Of a stretch of DNA of 16,071 bases, positions 1 through 11,804 are shown in pieces (within the stretch, counting starts at the first letter, position 1; the number at the start of each line of letters is the position of its first letter). Position numbers and translations under genes: made by a program. Below the pieces are notes generated by a model that saw nothing but the letters and a program-made list of their open reading frames with translations, made no database searches and was not told the DNA's origin. This stretch comes from Cyclobacteriaceae bacterium (GTDB lineage Bacteria; Bacteroidota; Bacteroidia; Cytophagales; Cyclobacteriaceae), in NCBI GenBank assembly GCA_013140395.1, contig JABFSY010000068.1, positions 1-16,071 on the forward strand, in the 5' to 3' direction.

Positions 1-1689
1 CTTTACAGGATTGATTGCGAGTGACACCCAGTAGCTTTCGCCTTTACTGTTATAGTTTAGAATTTCTTCATAAATTGGAATTCCTTCTTTAATGCCTTTT
101 CTTAGCTTCAGTATGGTATTTTTATCAGTAAGAGATCCTTGCAATAGCCTACCCGGTTTAAGTCCTATTATTTGACTTGGCTCATAGCCACTCATTTTGG
201 TGAACCCCGCATTTACATATTCAGTAATGCCATTTTTGTCCGTAATGATTACTGAGTTGTCGGTATTGTTTGCCACGAGAGACAATCTTTCAAATTCACC
301 TTCTTTAATCTTTCTTTGCGTGATATCTTGGATCAGGCAGAGAATACGAGTCGTAATGCCTGCTGAGTTTATGATTGCTGTAAAGGTAACGCTTAGCCAC
401 AAGTCCTTTCCCTCGATGGTCTTGGTTTGAAAGTCGCCCGCTTTTACTTTACTTGATAGGATATCACTCCATGAAATTTGATTTTCTGAACCAATCAATC
501 TTGTGTAAGGGCTTCCTTTCAACTGATCAGGTTGAGATTCAAAAAACTGTTCAAGGATGGTATTGCATTTAATCAGCGTTCCATCGGTTTCAAATTCCGC
601 GGTTGCCAGGGTGCTGTCTATTGCGCTTAGTACTCCGGAAAGCTCTGCTTGCTTGCGTGCCATTTCTTCTTGTGTGGCAGCTAGCTCTTCAAGATTTTGC
701 TTCATTTCTTCTTCACGAGTTTGAAGCTCCTGAGTAAGAACTGTTGATTCGCTCAATAGCGCCTCTGTATGCTGTGTGTTTTTTAGAGTTGCTATTTCAG
801 ATGCGATGTTGTCACACACCTCTCTTAAAAATTCAATACGATAAGGAGCCATTACTTCAAAAAGTGCAAGCTCAATTGCACCATAAAAGGTATTATTAAA
901 GATAAGTGGAGCTACAATAACATTGCGAGGTGTTGCTTGACCTAGGCCAGAAGTAATTTTTACATAATCTTTTGGGATATCGGTTATGAAAATAATATCC
1001 CTTTCTAGCATACATTGACCAAGTAGGCCTTGCCCCTCATAGATTTTATTCTCAAGGTATTTGCGTTTGTCATAGGCATAGCATGCTTTTAACTCCAGGT
1101 ACCGTTCGTTTGTTTCATCCTTATATTCGATAAACAACGCACCCTGATTTGCCTGCACATACTTTACAAGGTTGCTAATTATTTGGTGGCTGTATTCATT
1201 AACTTCAGCTTTGTTGCGAAGAATTTCACCAAACCGTGCAAGGCCCACATTGATCCAGGTTCGTTTTTCTTCCTCTCCTTTTAGTTTTTGCATTTCGTTG
1301 CGAATCTTCTCGAGTGCCTCGCCAATAGGATCATTGACAAGAAGATCATTGCTTGTAGCGGCTACTTCATTTTTGGCTAAGTTACCAATTAGCTCTGCTG
1401 AAATCTTAAATTTTCTTTTTATTAGTTCCTGATTTTCCTCTATATCATCAAGATAGTCTAAAGACCATTTTGAAGAAATTACATGTTTGCTATTTAGTGC
1501 CTGTGAAGATTGATTAACAACGCCTGTCAGATAGACCATCCAGATTCTGAAAATTACGACCACCAATATCATCCCTATGAGTATTAGTCCTATAGTCATC
1601 CAATAACTGCCGCCTAATAGCACTGATGAGACACTGCCAATCATAGCCAAAAGAAAGAAAATATGAGAAAGTATTATTTTCTGCTTCAT
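1..1689 (-). CDS. Membrane-anchored GAF/PAS sensor protein, C-terminus beyond window
   Basis: The reading frame is open from an ATG at 1689 down to base 1, giving 563 residues with no stop; the C-terminal output domain is not visible. Residues about 5-52 form two hydrophobic helices separated by a short GGS turn, so the protein is probably anchored in the inner membrane with almost no periplasmic part. A GAF-like domain follows at about 150-300, then a charged coiled coil at about 305-352 (an EELAATQEEM-type segment), one PAS at about 355-460 ending in a DITQRK linker, and a second PAS from about 468. The second PAS carries a LOV-like PGRLLQG segment with Gly where the flavin-binding Cys of true LOV domains would be. 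The ATG overlaps the stop of the CheC-like gene as ATGA, which implies translational coupling to the che operon. It could end in a histidine kinase, a receptor signalling domain or no catalytic domain. Confidence 0.85.
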   Translation of the reverse strand, partial: MKQKIILSHIFFLLAMIGSVSSVLLGGSYWMTIGLILIGMILVVVIFRIWMVYLTGVVNQSSQALNSKHVISSKWSLDYLDDIEENQELIKRKFKISAELIGNLAKNEVAATSNDLLVNDPIGEALEKIRNEMQKLKGEEEKRTWINVGLARFGEILRNKAEVNEYSHQIISNLVKYVQANQGALFIEYKDETNERYLELKACYAYDKRKYLENKIYEGQGLLGQCMLERDIIFITDIPKDYVKITSGLGQATPRNVIVAPLIFNNTFYGAIELALFEVMAPYRIEFLREVCDNIASEIATLKNTQHTEALLSESTVLTQELQTREEEMKQNLEELAATQEEMARKQAELSGVLSAIDSTLATAEFETDGTLIKCNTILEQFFESQPDQLKGSPYTRLIGSENQISWSDILSSKVKAGDFQTKTIEGKDLWLSVTFTAIINSAGITTRILCLIQDITQRKIKEGEFERLSLVANNTDNSVIITDKNGITEYVNAGFTKMSGYEPSQIIGLKPGRLLQGSLTDKNTILKLRKGIKEGIPIYEEILNYNSKGESYWVSLAINPVK

Positions 1690-2279
1690 TTTTGTGTCAG
1701 TAACTTTTCTTCTGGAATAATATCGAATATCCTACTATTTAATTTCCAAATAAATTGAGGATGAACATGATCACCAGACTCAAAATGAAATGTGGCGTTT
1801 GAAAACAATATGTTGGATGTTTCTTCATTCGTTACTTCGCCATTTATTAAATCCTGAAGCTTGCCGGAATTGATATGATGAAGGTGAGGGACATCGCCAT
1901 ACACTTCTGTGGCAAGTTTATCAGCGAGTTCGGAAATGACAGCAGCAGAAATGATGTTGTCGATTTCAAGCAAAAAACCATCTCTTAGTTGACCACTAAT
2001 TTTGGTTCCTAATACTTTGCAGATTTCAATTACTTCTCCTGCGCTAAATACCAGGAAGCTTTTTCCTGTGATCGAACCCATCAAATCTGTTGTTAACACA
2101 TAAATATCTCCTTCTTCTTCTGTAACAAAGGAGGAATCATTACCATGCCGTACTAGCAAAACAGCCGAGTTGGTGATTCGAACTGGCTGGCCAATTAGTT
2201 TAGTGAACGAGTCAGCTGCCCGTTTGAAGCCTGTATTCATGGCATGCATGACTAATTCTTCCCTGCGTTTGTTGTTCAT
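1686..2279 (-). CDS. cheC: CheC-family CheY-P phosphatase, probably one active site
   Basis: This 197-residue protein fits the CheC fold, whose members (about 200 residues) have two pseudo-symmetric helices with an E-x2-N-x22-P motif that removes phosphate from CheY-P. The second helix matches exactly: Glu105-x2-Asn108, then 22 residues to Pro131, followed by HL as in known CheC proteins. The first helix (residues 8-30) has the same layout, but His12 stands where Glu is expected beside Asn15, and Ser38 replaces the proline, so this site is probably inactive. The Asp/Ser usually four residues before the Glu is Gly101 at the second site. The gene starts 6 bases after cheA and overlaps the next gene by 4 bases. 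CheC commonly partners CheD, which is in this operon. The family is inferred from motif spacing alone; CheX or FliY-like relatives are the alternatives. Confidence 0.72.
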   Translation of the reverse strand: MNNKRREELVMHAMNTGFKRAADSFTKLIGQPVRITNSAVLLVRHGNDSSFVTEEEGDIYVLTTDLMGSITGKSFLVFSAGEVIEICKVLGTKISGQLRDGFLLEIDNIISAAVISELADKLATEVYGDVPHLHHINSGKLQDLINGEVTNEETSNILFSNATFHFESGDHVHPQFIWKLNSRIFDIIPEEKLLTQK

Positions 2280-2285
2280 ACTAGG

Positions 2286-4070
2286 CTAGTTTAGAGTGAA
2301 ATTTTTAGCCGCTTTGCCATGGGCAGTAAGGCTGAAAATGAAGTTCAATAAATGAGGTACATTTAACACTAAACACACATTTCCACTTCCCAAGATGGTT
2401 ACTCCGCTTATGAACCGTATCCTGTCTACTGGCTTCATCAATGGCTTTTCTACAATTTCCTTCTGCTGCAATAGTTTATCTACCACGAACCCTACTGTCC
2501 GATTGCTGAAATTGACCACAACTATATCTAATTTTTGCTCCGGATGGATCGCATCAAAGGAATTTTGAAGAACATTTGTGGTATACGCTGACTTTTCAAT
2601 CTGTTGATCAAAGACATCCTTCAAAAATACAACAGCCATATTTTTCCCAAGGTGTGTAGCGACTAACCCACCCCCCGCTTTGTGTATGTCTGTTTTGTAA
2701 AGAGATATTACTGACTCTGTATAGGCAAGGGGTATGGCATACACCTCTTTTCTAAGTTCAAGGAGTAAACACGATTTTACGGCCATTGATGAGGGCAAGG
2801 TTAATTGAATGGTTGTACCCTGCCCAACCTCACTCGATACTTTTATCAGCCCACCAATAGAATCCATTGTTTTCTTCACCACGTCCATACCCACTCCCCT
2901 GCCAGAAATAGCCGTTACTGCATCCATGGTTGAAAACCCAGGTTCAAAGATCAACATACTCAGTTCTTCCTCGGTAAGTTTATCAACCTGCTCTTCTTTG
3001 ATTAGGCCTTTGCTCAGCGCTTTACCTTTAATTCTATTGTAGTCCAATCCCTTTCCGTCATCGCGTATTTCAATAATAACTGCGTCCGTATCAATTCTGG
3101 CGCCAAGCCACACATTGCCATCTGGCGACTTACCAAGTCTCTTTCTTTCCTCAGGGCTTTCTATTCCGTGACCTACGCAATTGCGAATAAGATGAATTAA
3201 GGAGTCGCTAATTACCTGAAGCACGTTGCGGTCAATTTCAGTATCAGTGCCAATTAACTTAAGCACTACATTTTTTTGTTCAAGACTGGCCGCATCACGT
3301 ACCACGCGGTGAAACTTATTAAATAAAAATCCTACTTGCACAAGGCGAACGTCCATTACTGAGTATTGCAGATCAGAACTAATGCGACTTAAACGGGCGT
3401 ATTCATTGGAAGCATTCAAACCATTGCTAACATTGGAAGCAAGTATTCTATCTTTTTCAATAATCAATTCACCCACCAGATTCAATAGGTTATCCAACTT
3501 GCGCACAGGTACCTGCACCAAATCGGAGAAAGATACCTTGGCGTCCGCTTCTCCCGGAGTATCGGCTTCATCTTCATCAGGTAAAGCTATCGTTCCAGCA
3601 ATTGCTGGCTCCGGAGAGAAGGGACTTGACTCAAGACCAGTAGCACCAGCTAGGGCTGATGATTCTGAATTCTCTACCTGTGTCTCGGTGGCCTTTTTGA
3701 TCAATACTTCCAGCTTAGTTTTAATGCCTTTGTACTTTATCTCTGCGTTATCCCTAATGGCGTTGATCAGGTTCCCTAAAACATCTACGGCTTTAAAAAG
3801 CGACTCGAATATATTTGTATTCAACGTTATTTTACCATCTCTTACCTCGCCAAACAAGTCTTCCAGCACGTGAGCCATTTCTGCAATACCGGTATATCCC
3901 ATGCCCCCTGCATTTCCTTTTAGCGTATGGGTAATTCTGAAAAGTGCATGAATGGAGCTTTTTTCCTCGGGGTTTTTTTCGATGTGCGTGAGCAGTCTAT
4001 TTATTTCTTCAAAATTTTCGAGTGCTTCTGCTAAAAATATTTCCTTATACTCCTCTTCTTTATTTTTCAT
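2286..4070 (-). CDS. cheA: Chemotaxis histidine kinase CheA
   Basis: The 594-residue CheA is the cytoplasmic kinase that autophosphorylates under receptor/CheW control and passes phosphate to CheY and CheB. The N-terminal HPt domain (about 1-125) carries phosphoacceptor His48 in the context THTLKGNAGG. Residues about 130-180 are a low-complexity Ser/Ala/Pro/acidic linker with no room for a P2 domain. The dimerisation domain (about 183-255) begins with the typical VPVRKLDNLLNLVGEL segment. The ATPase domain has an N-box (HLIRN, residues 293-297), DDGKG at 337-341, SGRGVGMDVV at 389-398 and GQGTT at 416-420. The CheW-like domain spans about 430-580. Gly300 replaces the usual Asp of the N-box DHGIE motif. 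The start is 18 bases after cheB. The assignment is secure. Confidence 0.97.
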   Translation of the reverse strand: MKNKEEEYKEIFLAEALENFEEINRLLTHIEKNPEEKSSIHALFRITHTLKGNAGGMGYTGIAEMAHVLEDLFGEVRDGKITLNTNIFESLFKAVDVLGNLINAIRDNAEIKYKGIKTKLEVLIKKATETQVENSESSALAGATGLESSPFSPEPAIAGTIALPDEDEADTPGEADAKVSFSDLVQVPVRKLDNLLNLVGELIIEKDRILASNVSNGLNASNEYARLSRISSDLQYSVMDVRLVQVGFLFNKFHRVVRDAASLEQKNVVLKLIGTDTEIDRNVLQVISDSLIHLIRNCVGHGIESPEERKRLGKSPDGNVWLGARIDTDAVIIEIRDDGKGLDYNRIKGKALSKGLIKEEQVDKLTEEELSMLIFEPGFSTMDAVTAISGRGVGMDVVKKTMDSIGGLIKVSSEVGQGTTIQLTLPSSMAVKSCLLLELRKEVYAIPLAYTESVISLYKTDIHKAGGGLVATHLGKNMAVVFLKDVFDQQIEKSAYTTNVLQNSFDAIHPEQKLDIVVVNFSNRTVGFVVDKLLQQKEIVEKPLMKPVDRIRFISGVTILGSGNVCLVLNVPHLLNFIFSLTAHGKAAKNFTLN

Positions 4071-4088: not shown

Positions 4089-5129
4089 TTACAAGCAACT
4101 GACAATAAACCCCGGTATCTCTCCTAATTTCACAACTTGCTTCACAGTACCTTGCTCAAAAGCAGCCTTTGGCATTCCATACACCACCGATGATTCTTCA
4201 TCTTGTGCAATGGTGAAACCGCCCTTACTCTTAATTTTACCAAGGCCCATAGTACCATCTTTGCCCATGCCTGTCAAGATAACACCAATGGTTCGGGCGC
4301 CATAAATATCAGCTACGGATTCAAACATACAGTCAATGGAAGGGAAATTGTATTCAGGAAACTTCCTATCTGTGAAGGTGAATATTGGTGAACCCGTTAC
4401 GATACTATTTTCTATGCGCGTATTCGATTCGCCCGATGCCAAGTAAATGATTCCCTCTTTCAACGACTCACCCCGATGAGCAAGTTTTACCGGAAGCGGA
4501 CTATTTTCACTGAGCCTTACAGCAAATGTTTCAAGAAATCGTGCTGGCATGTGCTGCACCACAATTACTGGTATTGTTAAATTTTTGGGTAGATTATTAA
4601 TTACCGACTCAACTGCACTTGGCCCACCGGTGCTGGCGCCAATCACCACAATATCATAATTGAGTGTTTGGGTGAACGTATGCGCATTACTATTTTTTTG
4701 TGCGAGTTGTCTAGCTTTTAAAATACTGATATCTGTTCGAGCAGCAATCCTAATCAACTCTGCCAATGGATAATTTCCTCCACGGACAATATCCATGTCA
4801 GAAGGCTTATCAATAAATTCGAACGCACCATACTGCAATGCATCAAAGATTCTAGCGTTCGATTTTTCAAGTGAGCTGAGTAAAATAATGGGCATTGGAT
4901 GTTTTTCCATTACCGATTTCACAACATACATGCCATCATAGTCCGGCATGACCATGTCGGTGATGACTACATCGGGTTTTAGTTCCAACGCCATTGCGGT
5001 ACCCGTCTTCCCCTCGTTGGCAATGCCCACAAGCTCCAGCGATTCATCGTTACGGATGATGTCACCGATTACTTTCCGCATAAAGGCAGAATCATCGATT
5101 AATATCGTACGGATGCGGGCTGTTGGCAT
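4089..5129 (-). CDS. cheB: Receptor methylesterase/deamidase CheB
   Basis: This 346-residue protein has the standard CheB layout: a receiver domain (about 7-125), a linker, and a methylesterase domain (about 157-340). The receiver shows acidic residues Asp12/Asp13, phosphoacceptor Asp58 in ITDMVMPDYDG, Ser85 and Lys108. The esterase has the catalytic triad Ser166 (GASTGGPSA), His193 (VQHMP) and Asp291 (GMGKDG). When phosphorylated by CheA it would remove methyl groups from receptor glutamates or deamidate glutamines, acting in the cytoplasm on the receptor encoded upstream. The substrate-side loop reads YLASGES rather than the common YLAPG form. The chosen ATG gives a normal N-terminus and lies 14 bases after cheY. 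No cheR, the methyltransferase that opposes CheB, is found in the window. Confidence 0.97.
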   Translation of the reverse strand: MPTARIRTILIDDSAFMRKVIGDIIRNDESLELVGIANEGKTGTAMALELKPDVVITDMVMPDYDGMYVVKSVMEKHPMPIILLSSLEKSNARIFDALQYGAFEFIDKPSDMDIVRGGNYPLAELIRIAARTDISILKARQLAQKNSNAHTFTQTLNYDIVVIGASTGGPSAVESVINNLPKNLTIPVIVVQHMPARFLETFAVRLSENSPLPVKLAHRGESLKEGIIYLASGESNTRIENSIVTGSPIFTFTDRKFPEYNFPSIDCMFESVADIYGARTIGVILTGMGKDGTMGLGKIKSKGGFTIAQDEESSVVYGMPKAAFEQGTVKQVVKLGEIPGFIVSCL

Positions 5130-5143
5130 GGTTTTGTATTCGA

Positions 5144-5500
5144 CTAAGCCTTAGTCATCGCAGCTACTAATTGATCGCTGGTGAAGGGTTTGACAATGTA
5201 TGCCTTGGCACCTAACCGAAGGCCTTCATTTACTACCGACTCCTGACCCACTGCGCTGATCATTACGATCTTTGACTTTAAGCCTTCTTGCTGATACACT
5301 TTCAATATATCGGTGCCGATCATATCGGGCAGAATATTATCGAGAGTAATCAGATCTGGTTGAAGTTCAAATGCCAAATCAATGGCTTCTTCTCCATTAG
5401 CTGCTTGACCAACCACATTAAATCCAACGCCTTCTAATGCGTCCTTGATAATGGTACGCATATACAAGGAATCATCCACAATTAATACACTCTTTCCCAT
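5144..5500 (-). CDS. cheY: Single-domain response regulator CheY
   Basis: This is a stand-alone receiver domain of 118 residues starting at MGKSVLIVDDS. The acidic pair is Asp9/Asp10, the phosphoacceptor Asp54 (LITLDNILPD), the switch residue Ser82 (MISAVGQ) and the conserved Lys104 (VKPF). CheA should phosphorylate it; the CheC-like protein is a candidate phosphatase. An upstream ATG at 5551 would add 17 basic residues and overlap cheD by 41 bases. The internal ATG was preferred because it gives the normal CheY N-terminus, leaves a 10-base gap after cheD and has an AAAGG sequence just upstream. The motility machine it addresses cannot be told from this window: no flagellar or gliding gene is present. 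Because it lies inside a full che operon, CheY is much more likely than a general response regulator. Confidence 0.93.
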   Translation of the reverse strand: MGKSVLIVDDSLYMRTIIKDALEGVGFNVVGQAANGEEAIDLAFELQPDLITLDNILPDMIGTDILKVYQQEGLKSKIVMISAVGQESVVNEGLRLGAKAYIVKPFTSDQLVAAMTKA

Positions 5501-5510
5501 GGCCTTTATT

Positions 5511-5990
5511 TTAATAGGTTTTAGTTTGGTTAGTTTCCGGATGGCGGACATTCAACTCTCCAGACTGGCAGTTAAACCTTGCCGTTCTGCTTAAATGGCC
5601 GCCCATATCTGAGGCTGCGATAAATATGTTGCGCAGAACAAGTTCATTAGTAATTCTTTCTGCATTTTTTTTCCCGGTTTGAAACGAGTTGTCCGATCTG
5701 ACAACGCTCGCCCCACCCGTTATTTTTGCTCGCAGAGTTTGCGTTGAGCTTCCTCTGATTTTAAATTGATTTATCAATTCATCAAGGGCACTTTTTACCG
5801 AATAGTATTTATCATCGTGAATTGGCATATTCACATCGCCTGGTAGCTGAATATGCGCACCACCGCAAAGGCCAATGGTGCGGTCTTGAAGAAACACCCC
5901 AATACATGAACCTAAACCAACGCATGTAATGGTCACATTCTGATTGTCGCACACAGCTATATCACCAATATTCAGTTTATATTCAATCAT
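5511..5990 (-). CDS. cheD: Chemoreceptor glutamine deamidase CheD
   Basis: This 159-residue protein matches CheD, a cysteine-hydrolase-like deamidase that converts receptor glutamines to glutamates and, in many bacteria, is bound and controlled by CheC. Visible motifs are GLGSCIGV with catalytic Cys29, AHIQLP with His46, KITGGASV, TGKKNAE, and DMGGHLSRTARFN near the C-terminus, in the family order and spacing. The Thr that completes the triad in Thermotoga CheD lies six residues before the Cys; here that position is Cys23, with Thr22 next to it. The start codon overlaps the cheW stop as ATGA, indicating translational coupling. The likely substrate is the receptor encoded at 6616-8670, which carries two Gln-Gln pairs fitting the CheD/CheB target pattern. 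Confidence 0.94.
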   Translation of the reverse strand: MIEYKLNIGDIAVCDNQNVTITCVGLGSCIGVFLQDRTIGLCGGAHIQLPGDVNMPIHDDKYYSVKSALDELINQFKIRGSSTQTLRAKITGGASVVRSDNSFQTGKKNAERITNELVLRNIFIAASDMGGHLSRTARFNCQSGELNVRHPETNQTKTY

Positions 5991-6514
5991 GCTGCGAGTG
6001 CGGTTGTGGATGCTTTCTTGAGCGTGTTGGTCATCTCCTGATCTATCACTTTGAAAATGTCAATTAAGATGATGAGCCTGTCACCCGATTTAATGATGCC
6101 TTTAATATAATTGGTTTCCGTACTGGCATCATTGATAATACCTACCGATTCGTCCAGGTCAGCAGTGTTCACTGAAACCGTATTCGGTACATCATTTACC
6201 AACAAGCCCAACTTGATGTCTTCGCTTTCTACTACCAGCGTATACTTATTTCCATTTGTTTGATCCTCAGCGCGTGTTAGCTTAAAGCGATCCTCCAAAT
6301 CAAAGATGGCAATCACGTTGCCGCGGATGTTAGCTACCCCTTTCACAAAGGAAGCCGTTTGCGGCATGCGTGTTATGTTTGGTGTAATCACTACCTCTTT
6401 GATTTGATCGATGTGTAGTCCGTATTCCTCTTGCCCCAATTTAAAAACTACTATTTGAAGCGTGTGATGTGCACCGTCTTTTGTGGTAGCATTTGTCTTC
6501 GTATTTTCTGCCAT
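5987..6514 (-). CDS. cheW: Chemotaxis coupling protein CheW
   Basis: This 175-residue CheW links receptor tips to CheA in the signalling array. About 17 polar, probably flexible residues precede the CheW fold, which begins at LQIVVFKLGQEEYGL and runs to about residue 165. The conserved core VKGVANIRGNVIAIFDLEDRF (quoted in part) contains the NxRG signature that contacts receptor and kinase. A short Ala/Thr-rich tail ends the protein. It opens the tightly packed stretch of che genes: the next gene, cheD, overlaps it by 4 bases, while 101 bases containing an inverted repeat separate it from the receptor gene upstream. Whether it has its own promoter in that gap is unclear; no good match was seen. 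Confidence 0.96.
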   Translation of the reverse strand: MAENTKTNATTKDGAHHTLQIVVFKLGQEEYGLHIDQIKEVVITPNITRMPQTASFVKGVANIRGNVIAIFDLEDRFKLTRAEDQTNGNKYTLVVESEDIKLGLLVNDVPNTVSVNTADLDESVGIINDASTETNYIKGIIKSGDRLIILIDIFKVIDQEMTNTLKKASTTALAA

Positions 6515-6615: not shown

Positions 6616-8670
6616 TTACTTATTAATTTTAAACTGTTGTATTCCCGCTTGCAACTCAGCAGCAACTGCCGACAGTTCATCTCCTGCTTTTGCAATTTCC
6701 AACATGCCTGCGCTCATCTGCTGGCTTGAACTTGCCACTTGCTGTGTGCCTGCTGCCGTTTCTTCGGATACCACCACAATCTGTTCAAAGTTTTTAACCA
6801 CCGTGCCGATTGACTCTTTCTGTGCGCTGGTGGCTACTTGAATTTCCTTCGATGCTCCGAATGTTTCTTCTGTTGATTTGGCTATTTCTTTGAAGATCAC
6901 TTCTGCTTCTACGCTGGACTTGTTTCCTTCTTTTACACTGCCTTCCATCGTTTCAATGGCTTTGCCTGCGGCATGTGTATCTTTTTGAACATCACCAATG
7001 ATCTTCTCAATTTCTACTGCCGACTTGCGTGAATCCTCCGCCAGCTTTCTGATTTCTTCTGCAACTACTGCGAATCCTCTGCCTGCATCGCCTGCGCGGG
7101 CGGCTTCAATGGCGGCATTTAAGGCCAATAAGTTTGTTTGGCTCGCAATGTCTGTGATTACTTTCAGCGTGCGGCCAATCTCTTCAGTGCGCTTTGTCAA
7201 TACATTTATCGATTGAGAAGTTTGACTTGCTGAATCCTTAATACCATTCATATTATCTACCAGTATTCTCAAGGTCTTCATTCCCTGGTTGGAACTTTCC
7301 AATCCTTTTTCAGCGGCCTTGTTGATAACGTTCGATTTCTTCTCCATGTCATTGGACGAGGTCATCACATGATTGATCAGCTTAGAAGATTCGTCTGTGC
7401 GAGATGCCTGATCTTGAGCGCCTTTGGCCATTTGAGAAATGGCAGTAGCCACCTCGCCAGTGCTGCGCTTCATATCGTCTGTTTTTTTTTGCAATAAGTC
7501 AGATGATTTTGCAACCACATCCGATGCCTGACTAATGTTACTAAGTACAGAGGTGAGGTTATCGAACGCTTTGTTTATTTCTGCCGTCAAGCCTCCATTG
7601 TCCACCGCGGTGTTACAGCGGTAGGTCAAATCACCTGTAGACATGCCCTTGATCGCCCGAATTACCTCGGTCATATCCAATGCATATTTAACAACTTTAA
7701 ACGGCTTGCCATTCAAATCAGCGATAGGATTATAGGATGCCTGGATATACACTTCCTTTCCACGCTTATCAATGCGGGTATATGTGCTTACCATAAATTC
7801 TCCATTGTTAAGGCTTCTCCAAAAGTCTGCATATTCTGCACCACGCGCGTAGGTTGGATCAACGAACATACGGTGATGTTTTCCTTTAACTTCGTTTAAC
7901 GAATAGCCGCCTAATGCTGACAAGAAATTATCATTGGCTGTGATAATAGTACCATCCATATTAAATTCTATCACAGCATTTGATTTGCCAACAGCATTGA
8001 TTTGACCTTCATAGTCTGCGTTTCGGAGTTTCTGTTGGGTAGTATCCGTTGCCACTTTTACCACTTTGAAAATCTTCCCTTTATCATCTTTTACGGGGGT
8101 GTAGCTGGCTTGAATCCATACCTCTGAGCCATCTTTGGCAATTCGTTTAAACTCACCCACCTGTGGCTTCCCATCCTGCAGATCTTCCCAAAACCTTTCG
8201 TATGCATTTGAATTAGCATATGCTGCTTCGCAAAAAATTCGGTGATGCTTGCCCTCAATTTCGCCAGATTTATATTTAAGCGCACCTAGAAAAAGGTCAT
8301 TGGCTTTAATGATTGTTCCATCCGGTAAAAATTCAATAAAGGCATTCGTTGAACTAATTGCTCGCATTACTCCTTCGCCCTCCATTAATTTAACGTCTTG
8401 GCTTTTTAACCGCTCTTGCAATTCGGCTACGAGTTTAGATTCTAATCCTATGGTTGGTTCCTCAGCGCCACCTTCGGCACCATTCGCTTTGTCTTGATAC
8501 AAATTTTTACTCATTTTTTTAGTTGTTTTAGTGGAGAATGTTTCTGTTTTAAGTACACTATCATTTTGAATTTCTGTTTCATTACTCACTACTTGAGTAA
8601 CGTCTGGCTCTGCATCACTTACCAGGGTAGGTAATACTGTTTCCTTTTTTAAGTTTTTTCCTATCGCCAT
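6616..8670 (-). CDS. Soluble double-PAS methyl-accepting chemotaxis protein
   Basis: This is a 684-residue cytoplasmic chemoreceptor with no membrane segment. Residues 1 to about 75 look disordered: a basic start ([10 protein letters not shown]) followed by a Ser/Thr/Glu-rich stretch, then a short helix. Two homologous PAS domains follow (about 100-215 and 220-340), both with GKHHR and IQASY segments, resembling the tandem PAS of BdlA-type receptors. A short HAMP-like piece lies at about 340-385, then the signalling hairpin to the C-terminus. The tip (about 505-550) has [17 protein letters not shown] and [16 protein letters not shown]. Gln-Gln pairs at 643-644 and 650-651 fit the CheD/CheB target pattern. 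No NWETF-type tail is present. The ATG at 8670, 2 bases after the parA-like stop, was chosen over an in-frame TTG at 8700 that lies inside that gene. A later ATG (residue 53) is possible. The ligand is unknown; bound haem, flavin or a metabolite is plausible. Confidence 0.95.
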
Positions 8671-8672
8671 TG

Positions 8673-9431
8673 TTAATTGGGGTTTACGAGTTGAGTACAA
8701 TGAATAACTTCTTGGGCAAAGGCAGTATAATCGGTAGCGGCTGTAGAAAGTGGTGCATACTCAAGTACGCTCTTGCCAAATGAGGGTGCTTCTGCAGCTT
8801 TTACGCAAGCACGTATTGATGAATTGAAAATAGGCACCTGAAAATTCTCTTTTACATATTCCACTATTTCGCGGTATAAATTCTTTCTCACATCTGCCAT
8901 TACCGGCAATACGCCAAGTATTTCCAAACTTGGATTCAGCGTTGATTTTACTTTGGCAATTGTTTCCAGCATCATCTCCAGGCCTTTTACCGCCAGCACT
9001 TCCATTTGCATGGGAATGATTACAGCGTGCGAAGCCATTAACGCGTTTGCACTGAGCAGCGAAAGAGACGGGGGGCAATCAATCAGTACATAGTCATACT
9101 CCAACTCCGTTGATAACACATCTTTTAGATACCCAAAGCGATCGGTGCTGTTTGCAATCGAAATTTCAACATCGGCCAATGAATGATTTGTAGGTATGAG
9201 AAAGAGATTTTCGCTAGCGTATGTCGCTTGTGTAAGTGTGCATTCGCCTAAGAGCACGTGGGCGATACTGTTTTTAAACTCGGTAAGACCTAAAGAGTAA
9301 GAAAGATTGCCCTGCGCATCAAAGTCAATCAACAGAACTTTACAACCTTCTTTTGCTAGGGCAGAGCCAAGGTTTACTGTGGTGGTGGTCTTGCCTGTTC
9401 CGCCTTTATGATTTACAATTGAAATAATCAT
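8673..9431 (-). CDS. ParA/Soj-family ATPase, probably positions chemoreceptor cluster
   Basis: This 252-residue ATPase has the deviant Walker A box KGGTGKTT (residues 9-16) with signature Lys9 and catalytic Lys14, a Walker A' segment DFDAQGN (36-42) and a Walker B Asp118 in VLIDCPPS. It has the Soj/small-ParA length, without an N-terminal DNA-binding domain. Proteins of this family bind DNA non-specifically as ATP dimers and move or space a partner that stimulates their ATPase. No parB gene and no parS-like palindrome accompany it, which argues against chromosome or plasmid partitioning. It lies 18 bases after the 194-aa gene and 2 bases before the receptor gene. By analogy with Rhodobacter PpfA, it probably distributes the cytoplasmic receptor array; that role is inference from context. 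Confidence 0.93.
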
Positions 9432-9449: not shown

Positions 9450-10034
9450 TTAGTTGACAGAAAAGCGATAGAATCGTTCAGGGCAATTGGTGTGTACAAC
9501 TTTTTCTTGTATCGTGTCATTTTCTTTAGATGCTACCCTGAAGCTATTTTTGAAACCAGCAATGACCGGTTGCGCGCGCAGTGCTTCAAGCCCTTTTTCT
9601 ATCAGTTCAGTTAGCTGTGGCCCAAGCGAATCAGCCTCTATTGCAATTTGCTGTGCATCTATTAAACCTTGTAGCTTGTCGGGAAGCCTGCTGTTTGTAG
9701 AACGATCGTCAAAAATAATTTTAGTGAAATACTCCACTGCATTTTGTCCAGCTTCTAATCGCCATTGTTTAGCATTCGTTTTTAAGTGGCGGAAGGCTTG
9801 GAATAAAAAATCGTGATTGTCGCCAACCACCCAAACGCGTAGTTGGCTGCCGTCAGCCCAAATTAATGCTTCTTTATATACCAGGTTCAGCCCAGCCATA
9901 ATGGCGTGTGTTTGTGTGCCATTAAAGTAGAACGCCTCTTTTGTGCGCTTATCTGATTTCAACTCTACACACAAGGCCATTATGCTAGCTTTCGCTTTTT
10001 CTTTAGTGGTTGGCGTAATCCATTGGTGTGTCAT
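9450..10034 (-). CDS. Unrecognised 194-aa protein at head of chemosensory operon
   Basis: I do not recognise this protein. It is soluble, with no signal peptide or membrane helix, and mixes helical and strand-like stretches. An N-terminal part (about 1-75) ends in the strand-like LRVWVVGD. A Trp- and His-containing middle (about 76-105) follows, then a probable amphipathic helical region (about 120-165) with an Ile/Leu/Glu-rich pattern, and an aromatic C-terminus (ERFYRF). The reading frame is continuous with ordinary codon use, and it begins an apparent operon 18 bases ahead of the ParA gene, which supports it as a real gene. A 111-base gap precedes its ATG. The position suggests a partner or regulator of the ParA/receptor module, but nothing in the residues shows a function. 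Confidence 0.8.
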   Translation of the reverse strand: MTHQWITPTTKEKAKASIMALCVELKSDKRTKEAFYFNGTQTHAIMAGLNLVYKEALIWADGSQLRVWVVGDNHDFLFQAFRHLKTNAKQWRLEAGQNAVEYFTKIIFDDRSTNSRLPDKLQGLIDAQQIAIEADSLGPQLTELIEKGLEALRAQPVIAGFKNSFRVASKENDTIQEKVVHTNCPERFYRFSVN

Positions 10035-10145: not shown

Positions 10146-11804
10146 TTAGTCAGGCGCATGTTGTTGGAGATGAAGTTTTCTATTGATCAATTTTCCTTTA
10201 TGATCGTTTGGTATTGTTAGTTGGAAAACACTACCAAATCCTACTTCAGATTCAACCGATATACTGCCTTTCAATTGTTCCAATGCTTCTTTTGCAATAA
10301 ATAAACCTAAGCCAGCACCTTTTGAAATACTGGTAGCTTTATAAAACATGGTAAAGATGTGTTCACAATGGTCTTTGCCAATACCAATGCCGTTATCTGC
10401 AATTTGAATTTTCACCTGTTTATCACTCAGATCAACTTGTATTTTAATAAAAGGGTGCACTTTCTTTTGATCGTAATAATTGATCGCATTTCTAATTACA
10501 TTGTCAATTGTCAGCTCTACGCGATCCACGTCATTGTAAAATTGACTTATACCCTCCGTTTTTACTTCTACCTTTATTTTGCTCAAAGAAGGATCAGCCT
10601 GATACTTATTTACGAGCTTCCAAATAGTAGGTCCGAAGTCAATATGTTCGCTTTTTATCCGCTGGTAGGTGGTACGCGAATAGTTCATTATATCCTTAAT
10701 AATCTTATCTAGTTTATAAGCGCTGGCTTCAATTTTTGAAACATAATCCAGCGTTATTGAATCGGATGTTTCCATTCGCATAAGATTAACCAGCCCAAGT
10801 ATAGAAGTAAGTGGAGAACGAAATTCATGCGAGGTACTGTATAAGAATTTTTGTATCTGTTTGTTTGCTTTAGCTAACAGAAGGTTCTTTTTCTTATCGA
10901 CTTCATCCATGTGCTGAACTTGCTTCAATGTTTTGAGCAGTTCTTCATTTGCATTATGCAATTCTTGCTCGCGGAGTATTAAATCTGTGATTACATATCT
11001 AACCCCAATATATTTAATTGGCTGTCCATAAGCGTCCAGCACAGGGGCAATGGTTACATCTACCCAATACGGACTACCATCTTTCTTTTTATTTTTCAGA
11101 ATACCCCTAAAAATACTTCCGCTTTTTATGGTTGCCCACATATCCTTAAAAACAGAACTCGGAGTATCCGGATGACGCAACAAGCTGTGCGGGCGCCCTA
11201 AACATTCTTCGCGTGTATATTGAGATATTTCGCACAATAAATCATTTACATAAATGATATTACCTTTTAAATCAGATTCGGTAACGATGCAGGCGATGTT
11301 AACCTGTTTCATTCTTGTTCTAAGTTCGCTTTGCAGCGAGTTCATTGGCATCGAACGGATTTGCTCCTCATTAATATCATTAATGTCAGCCTTGGCCGTA
11401 AATGCTGGTGTGTTTGCCGGATTATTTGGTTTAGGTGCTTTGGATTCTTTTAGTTCAATTGAAACCAGTAAAAGCCATTTTCTAGTTGGTAGACTTTTGC
11501 CTGTTGGGGTAAGATTAGCCGTTACTATCAAGTTATCGGTAGTTAATTCTAACAAGTGAGGCGCCAAATCATTTGGCTCTAGGTTGCTAATGGCAAGCTC
11601 CAGTTCTCGAAGCACAGTTTCCGAATTTATGATTTCTTTGAAGGGGGTATTTTCTAGAAATATTTTACCTTCACAATCGGCAAGCGCTGCCGCTTGGGGG
11701 CTCTGTTGAAAAAGCTTATAAAAAAAAATGGCAGCCTCCGAGTTCTCCAAAAAATATTCTTTCGGTTCCTCAGCTCCAATCAACTTAATGGTTTTTACAG
11801 CCAT
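10146..11804 (-). CDS. Soluble PAS sensor histidine kinase with Aer-like PAS
   Basis: This 552-residue kinase has no membrane helix. Residues 1 to about 120 form a weakly conserved, possibly PAS-like module, followed by a Pro/Asn/Ala-rich linker (about 120-150). A clear PAS domain (about 165-275) contains [19 protein letters not shown] and a [12 protein letters not shown] segment, very like the FAD-binding PAS of the Aer redox receptor. A coiled linker leads to a HisKA domain with phosphoacceptor His326 (SHEFRSPL). The HATPase_c domain has an N-box (VIRNAINYY), a G1 box (ADNGIGIG) and a G2-type [13 protein letters not shown] segment. No receiver domain is attached; the NarL-type regulator encoded just upstream in transcription is a possible partner, though kinases of this HisKA class usually pair with other regulator types. 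A candidate promoter lies 16 bases before its ATG. Confidence 0.93.

Follow-up and report, generated by a model that had tools for sequence, protein, structure and literature searches.

The window analyzed here, a 16,071-nucleotide stretch from a metagenome-assembled genome (MAG) of the Cyclobacteriaceae (3.03 Mb, 81% complete), carries on its minus strand, in this order, genes for a PAS histidine kinase (10146..11804), a 194-aa protein (9450..10034), a ParA-type ATPase of 252 aa (8673..9431), a soluble chemoreceptor of 684 aa (6616..8670), CheW (5987..6514), CheD (5511..5990), CheY (5144..5551 for the ORF as listed, the true start of which may be further in), CheB (4089..5129), CheA (2286..4070, with Hpt, dimerisation, HATPase and CheW domains) and a 197-aa protein (1686..2279). 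The kinase and the Che proteins were assigned by family scan. As the MAG is 81% complete, absences in this genome are provisional, and so are those in the incomplete MAGs among the sampled genomes. The preliminary description had placed a full che set downstream of the receptor; CheW, CheD, CheY, CheB and CheA do follow, but CheR was not detected among the ten window proteins scanned, and the strong CheR match of this genome lies on contig C29, with a weak second match on C427. The 197-aa protein after cheA, present at most related che loci, had no match in Pfam or NCBIfam and is possibly, as a guess, a divergent phosphatase of the CheC/CheX type. The 194-aa protein just upstream of parA, defined from its ORF and from locus comparison, was not assigned to a family; a weak relative of its gene occupies the same place in two loci lacking ParA (L010 and L015), where the receptor comes next with no ParA between them. 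Likewise, a similar PAS histidine kinase was found upstream of several che clusters without ParA. SprA is present in the genome, in keeping with a gliding-type Bacteroidota, as the preliminary description had supposed.

The adjacency on which that description was built was confirmed: the parA gene ends 2 bp before the ATG of the receptor gene at 8670. A longer receptor ORF, listed from 8700, was discarded, since its start is a TTG inside parA. The receptor (Pfam) comprises an N-terminal tag (residues 1-14, 8629..8670, recognized by alignment and pattern search), a poorly conserved linker (residues 15-52, 8515..8628, with alignment columns compared to residue 40), two PAS domains and an MCP signalling domain (MCPsignal, E 1.5e-40). 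No transmembrane segment was found in it (maximum Kyte-Doolittle-19 value of 0.87), nor in any of the 24 tagged proteins tested (24/24), and it was the only MCPsignal match in the window genome (81% complete). Tagged receptors span 646 to 2084 aa. Three tagged soluble receptors (L066, L068 and L071) reach 1840-2084 aa, unusually long for chemoreceptors, and at the other end L184 encodes a shrunken MCP of 352 aa with a tag, in a genome (G124, 81% complete) where CheW was not found.

The window ParA (Pfam AAA_31, E 5e-53) shows the deviant Walker A, catalytic Asp and Walker B features of the ParA ATPase family, with its catalytic motifs intact. Residues K9, G10, G11, K14, T15, D38, D113 and D118, which we take to be the deviant Walker A with its signature lysine, the catalytic Asp and the Walker B, were kept in at least 90% of the rows of the che-linked clade to which this protein belongs and in at least 85% of the other rows. 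That clade was defined on a first tree of 51 ParAs, which took in 30 loci fetched from among the matches listed in a ParA search across the order, taken to be Cytophagales from named relatives and the Raineya names; the window ParA fell in a clade of 30 rows (support 100/97), with chromosomal and plasmid-type ParAs outside. When 57 rows were added, the clade consisted of exactly the same 30 rows (SH-aLRT 100, the only support computed for this quick tree). The added rows corresponded to 38 stretches from the order (40 were fetched, two of which, with guessed coordinates, held no ParA) and to the closest 19 loci from the rest of the phylum. The latter came from a search of 395 genomes, 78 of which matched at E ≤ 1e-50 (own genome included), with 20 loci fetched, 19 of them besides our own. 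The 78 ParA rows outside the clade represent 77 distinct sequences, L253 being a duplicate of L057.

Neither a chromosomal Soj placement nor a ParB partner, both of which the preliminary description had named as possible refutations, was found for this protein. The trees keep it apart from Soj, no ParB was detected among the window proteins scanned, and no site within 3 mismatches of what we take to be the B. subtilis-type parS consensus was present on the window, the stretch to which the parS search was confined. The genome's one ParB_N match, a ParB beginning MSKRNALGRGLSALL, is on contig C1 and adjoins another ParA.

The first 14 residues of the receptor follow a pattern shared by the proteins paired with this ParA clade, usually MALGxN[LI]K[KR][ED][KR]L[IL]P. 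Positions 1, 2 and 4 did not vary among the 30 proteins compared (27 distinct N-termini), while positions 3, 6 and 8 agreed in 24, 25 and 25 of the 27, respectively; entropy did not exceed 2.04 bits at residues 1-14, versus 2.3-3.5 bits at residues 15-40. The net charge of the tag is only 0 to +3. Two tags leave the pattern in their second half, after residue 8 or 9 (L061, MALGKNLKLSKDKLIS, and L075, MALGNNLKKGGELK). The "ALG" of the tag resembles the ParB start ALGRGLSALL, and basic LG-type boxes also open some partners of other ParAs of the phylum, namely ParB itself (ALGRGLSALL) and small proteins reading SLGSSPIAF or SLGHNPLAY; because many partners of other ParAs have a basic start that lacks such a box (MAKKSFSGGLDSLLGG and MSKKKKFAALL, for example), this likeness is suggestive only. 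Additional LG-box partners are encoded after close ParA relatives in other parts of the phylum, as small proteins of 88-137 aa with a box of the SLGxxP or MGHNP type at their start (L196, L198, L199, L201, L205-L207 and L209-L214), which may, as a guess, have a DNA-binding C-terminus.

A survey of conserved ParA-MCP adjacency, one of the checks proposed at the outset, showed it to be present in several families of the order. Directly downstream of 24 of the 30 clade ParAs (gaps of 1-337 bp) there was a gene starting MA[LI]G with Asn at position 6, and at this frequency the adjacency is not due to chance. The six remaining clade ParAs were unlinked (genomes G018, G041, G068, G070, G079 and G124), and each of these genomes has a tagged MCP, the tag being a close variant, MASGKEIKRDRLIP, in G041 and G070. 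A clade ParA thus shared its genome with a tagged protein in 30 cases out of 30. Conversely, receptors unpaired with a clade ParA had no tag, and a tagged gene was next door in none of the 78 other ParA rows (77 distinct), among them the 19 ParA loci fetched outside the order (20 loci including our own, of 78 matching genomes).

The same association was recovered when a DNA pattern for the tag was searched in 148 genomes of the order, which gave 41 matches, compared with 5 for the reversed pattern used as a control. This pattern located a tagged MCP or PAS protein in 21 of 23 clade-ParA genomes, taken as those with a ParA placed in either tree and among the matches listed, and in 0 of 125 others (Fisher p 1.5e-23, a value that is not a probability, the genomes being related); six of the genomes classed as lacking a clade ParA (G017, G069, G072, G074, G087 and G096) were so classed by score (best E 1e-43 to 2e-46). 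The two genomes missed by the pattern carry the variant MASGKEIKRDRLIP. Besides the 21 tagged genes, the 41 matches included 7 extra ones in clade-ParA genomes and 13 in the 125 genomes without clade ParA; when all of these 13 were read, not one resembled an MCP or a PAS protein. The 20 non-tag matches, judged by eye, were short frames, a 123-aa HTH-like protein (L180), a 163-aa protein of unassigned family (L127) and two frames inside larger protease-like proteins (L124 and L139). Over the 395 genomes of the phylum the pattern was uninformative: most matches (74 genomes) were to MAFGRNF, with which a conserved but unrelated gene seems to begin, and the pattern was therefore not used there for counts.

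ParA and tag also appear and disappear together among related receptors. Relatives of the receptor locus occurred in 18 genomes, with a clade ParA in 6 and none in 12. The receptor tree consisted of 44 rows (19 tagged, 23 untagged and 2 second receptors); it left out a fragment (L023) and two distant sequences (L026 and L027, 26-36% identity), and had no row for L021 and L025 (receptor cut by contig end) or L184 (short signalling match). On this tree the tagged label changed 11 times and the untagged label 10; well supported branches force at least 8 and at least 7 of these changes, respectively. Twenty-one of the 23 untagged rows came from genomes without clade ParA (six by score only), and the other two (L018 and L020) were second clusters in genomes that pair their clade ParA with a different, tagged receptor. 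In Ohtaekwangia koreensis (G159), for instance, one che cluster (L098) has ParA and a tagged receptor, and the other (L018) has no ParA.

The window receptor itself lies in a supported subclade of 10 rows, the other nine of which are untagged; its signalling region shares up to 91% identity with that of the untagged receptor of L022, a locus without ParA. These nine untagged relatives, together with the absence of MCP in 10 of 11 sampled genomes of the window family, indicate that ParA is dispensable for such clusters. In L010-L012, the untagged receptors begin with the residue that corresponds to window Met53 (ATG at 8514-8512; MKPNYYQDKENG), as does that of L008 as far as its contig shows (the contig begins 23 bases earlier), and in L007, L014, L017 and L022 the Met53 segment is internal, preceded by a leader that has no tag or by what may be an alternative start. 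Since untagged relatives in the subclade start at this Met or carry its counterpart without the tag, residues 1-52 of the window receptor look like an add-on. The degraded tag-like starts seen in L015 (MAVIRNSKKVKSLP) and G055 (MALTSKKKIDQVPAP) may be what remains after a loss.

The tag was also found outside chemotaxis. Four genomes (G025, G056, G083 and G111; loci L062-L065), belonging to one genus which is Raineya by the names of close homologues, had no MCP or CheW matches; in all four a clade ParA is followed within 1-46 bp by a tagged PAS protein of 215 or 216 aa. An alignment of 19 of its 24 homologues (P0005, P0017, P0022, P0023 and P0024 were left out) showed invariance at 13 of the 14 columns of the tag and over most of a stretch at the C-terminus (IELDIDKxLKSAKI), with a variable PAS core between them. 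The predicted proteins P0022 and P0023 begin at the residue equivalent to Met12, so that most of the tag is missing, perhaps because of the gene-start call. The protein resembles a two-ended adaptor that would serve another cargo. It might instead have been left over from a che system since lost, but that both ends are invariant speaks for a protein in use. It seems about as likely as not that the tag is a portable ParA address module, swapped between cargos, that chemoreceptors gained or lost together with ParA at least 7 times among those sampled from the order, and that in Raineya it serves another cargo through a two-ended adaptor.

Taken with the gene neighbourhood, these patterns make it probable that the window ParA positions a cytoplasmic chemoreceptor array, acting as a motor that binds the nucleoid and is driven by ATP, with the receptor itself as its adaptor; they suggest that the motor grips the sensor by the tag and shares sensor clusters between daughter cells. 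According to this model, the 14-residue tag at the receptor N-terminus would bind the ATP-bound ParA dimer and trigger ATP hydrolysis, the role that the N-terminus of ParB plays towards Soj. With its many tags on display, an array would follow a ParA-ATP gradient over the nucleoid; it would be split and then shared at division. We infer nucleoid binding, stimulation by the tag, and array splitting and inheritance from the sequence patterns and from the systems that they resemble. Weighing against this model are the dispensability of ParA for such clusters, the two tags that leave the pattern and the low net charge of the tag. The array-segregation reading of the preliminary description is supported overall, with one amendment: where a different adaptor had been considered possible, the evidence favours the 14 residues at the N-terminus of the receptor itself, in a way similar to the proposal made for TlpT.

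The stimulation of a ParA/MinD ATPase by a short, basic, disordered N-terminus of a cargo protein is an established idea, with TlpT among the cases suggested (PMC7993993, PMC10241942). Given these published activators and the LG-box partners described above, the simplest reading is that the receptor is a ParA-activating protein and the array its cargo. PpfA/TlpT of Rhodobacter sphaeroides, the model system for array positioning by a ParA (PMC3964821, PMC6829392), offers the closest gene arrangement, a ParA homologue beside a transmembrane-free receptor in a che operon, and the N-terminus of TlpT is a proposed ParB-like activator (PMC3964821, PMC7993993). The window has the same arrangement, with no ParB beside it; compared by description, it differs in belonging to another phylum and an apparently gliding type (SprA), and in its conserved 14-residue tag, common to receptors of 646-2084 aa and to small PAS proteins. 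In PomX/PomZ and McdB/McdA, likened here by description, a cargo protein with a short N-terminal activating region (or a suggested one) also acts on a ParA/MinD ATPase (PMC7993993), although the cargos are others. Soj/Spo0J shares the ATPase motifs, and its partner box ALGRGLSALL resembles MALGNNLKKEKLLP at the ALG core; in contrast, the window ParA stands in a separate clade, its partner is not a DNA-binding ParB, and no parS-like site was found on the window.

Che-linked ParA-type ATPases also control array position as ParC in Vibrio, where it works with ParP, and in Halothiobacillus neapolitanus (PMC10241942). A mechanism of the Vibrio type, with ParA marking the pole as a landmark and a CheW-like adaptor tethering the arrays there without splitting over a nucleoid gradient, would draw on the fact that ParC is likewise a ParA homologue linked to che genes (PMC5706961, PMC10241942). 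It is nonetheless unlikely here: the Vibrio system has a separate adaptor and a polar landmark, whereas no ParP-like adaptor was seen in this 81% complete genome, whose two CheW-domain matches are the window CheW and CheA, and the conserved tag is on the receptor itself, the tagged proteins tested being without membrane segment. Regulation of che signalling or motility output by ParA, with the tag merely recruiting it to an array that it does not position, seems very unlikely, given intact catalytic motifs and the positioning role of the ParAs known to pair with arrays in the published systems cited above, even though no test of a ParA from this clade appears in the literature searched. That a plasmid or chromosomal partition gene strayed into the che operon by chance is scarcely credible, common as ParAs are and even with most sampled genomes of the window family lacking MCP, because it is contradicted by the co-occurrence of all 30 clade ParAs with a tagged protein against none next door to the 78 other rows, and because unlinked pairs still co-occur.

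The presence of ParA/PpfA homologues in che operons is already known, having been in print since 2010, when 77 of 206 species (37%) were counted (PMC2829493). As far as the literature searched shows, the novelty lies in defining the tag, in showing that it pairs with one ParA clade, and in finding it on a protein outside chemotaxis. For the question of how ParA-family motors choose their cargo, this clade supplies natural test pairs: closely similar receptors with and without ParA and tag, the two clusters of Ohtaekwangia koreensis, and genomes with the tag on a non-chemotaxis protein. The tag also offers a rule by which ParA cargos can be recognized from sequence, and with the system proposed here array positioning would reach a Bacteroidota genome that appears to be of the gliding type.
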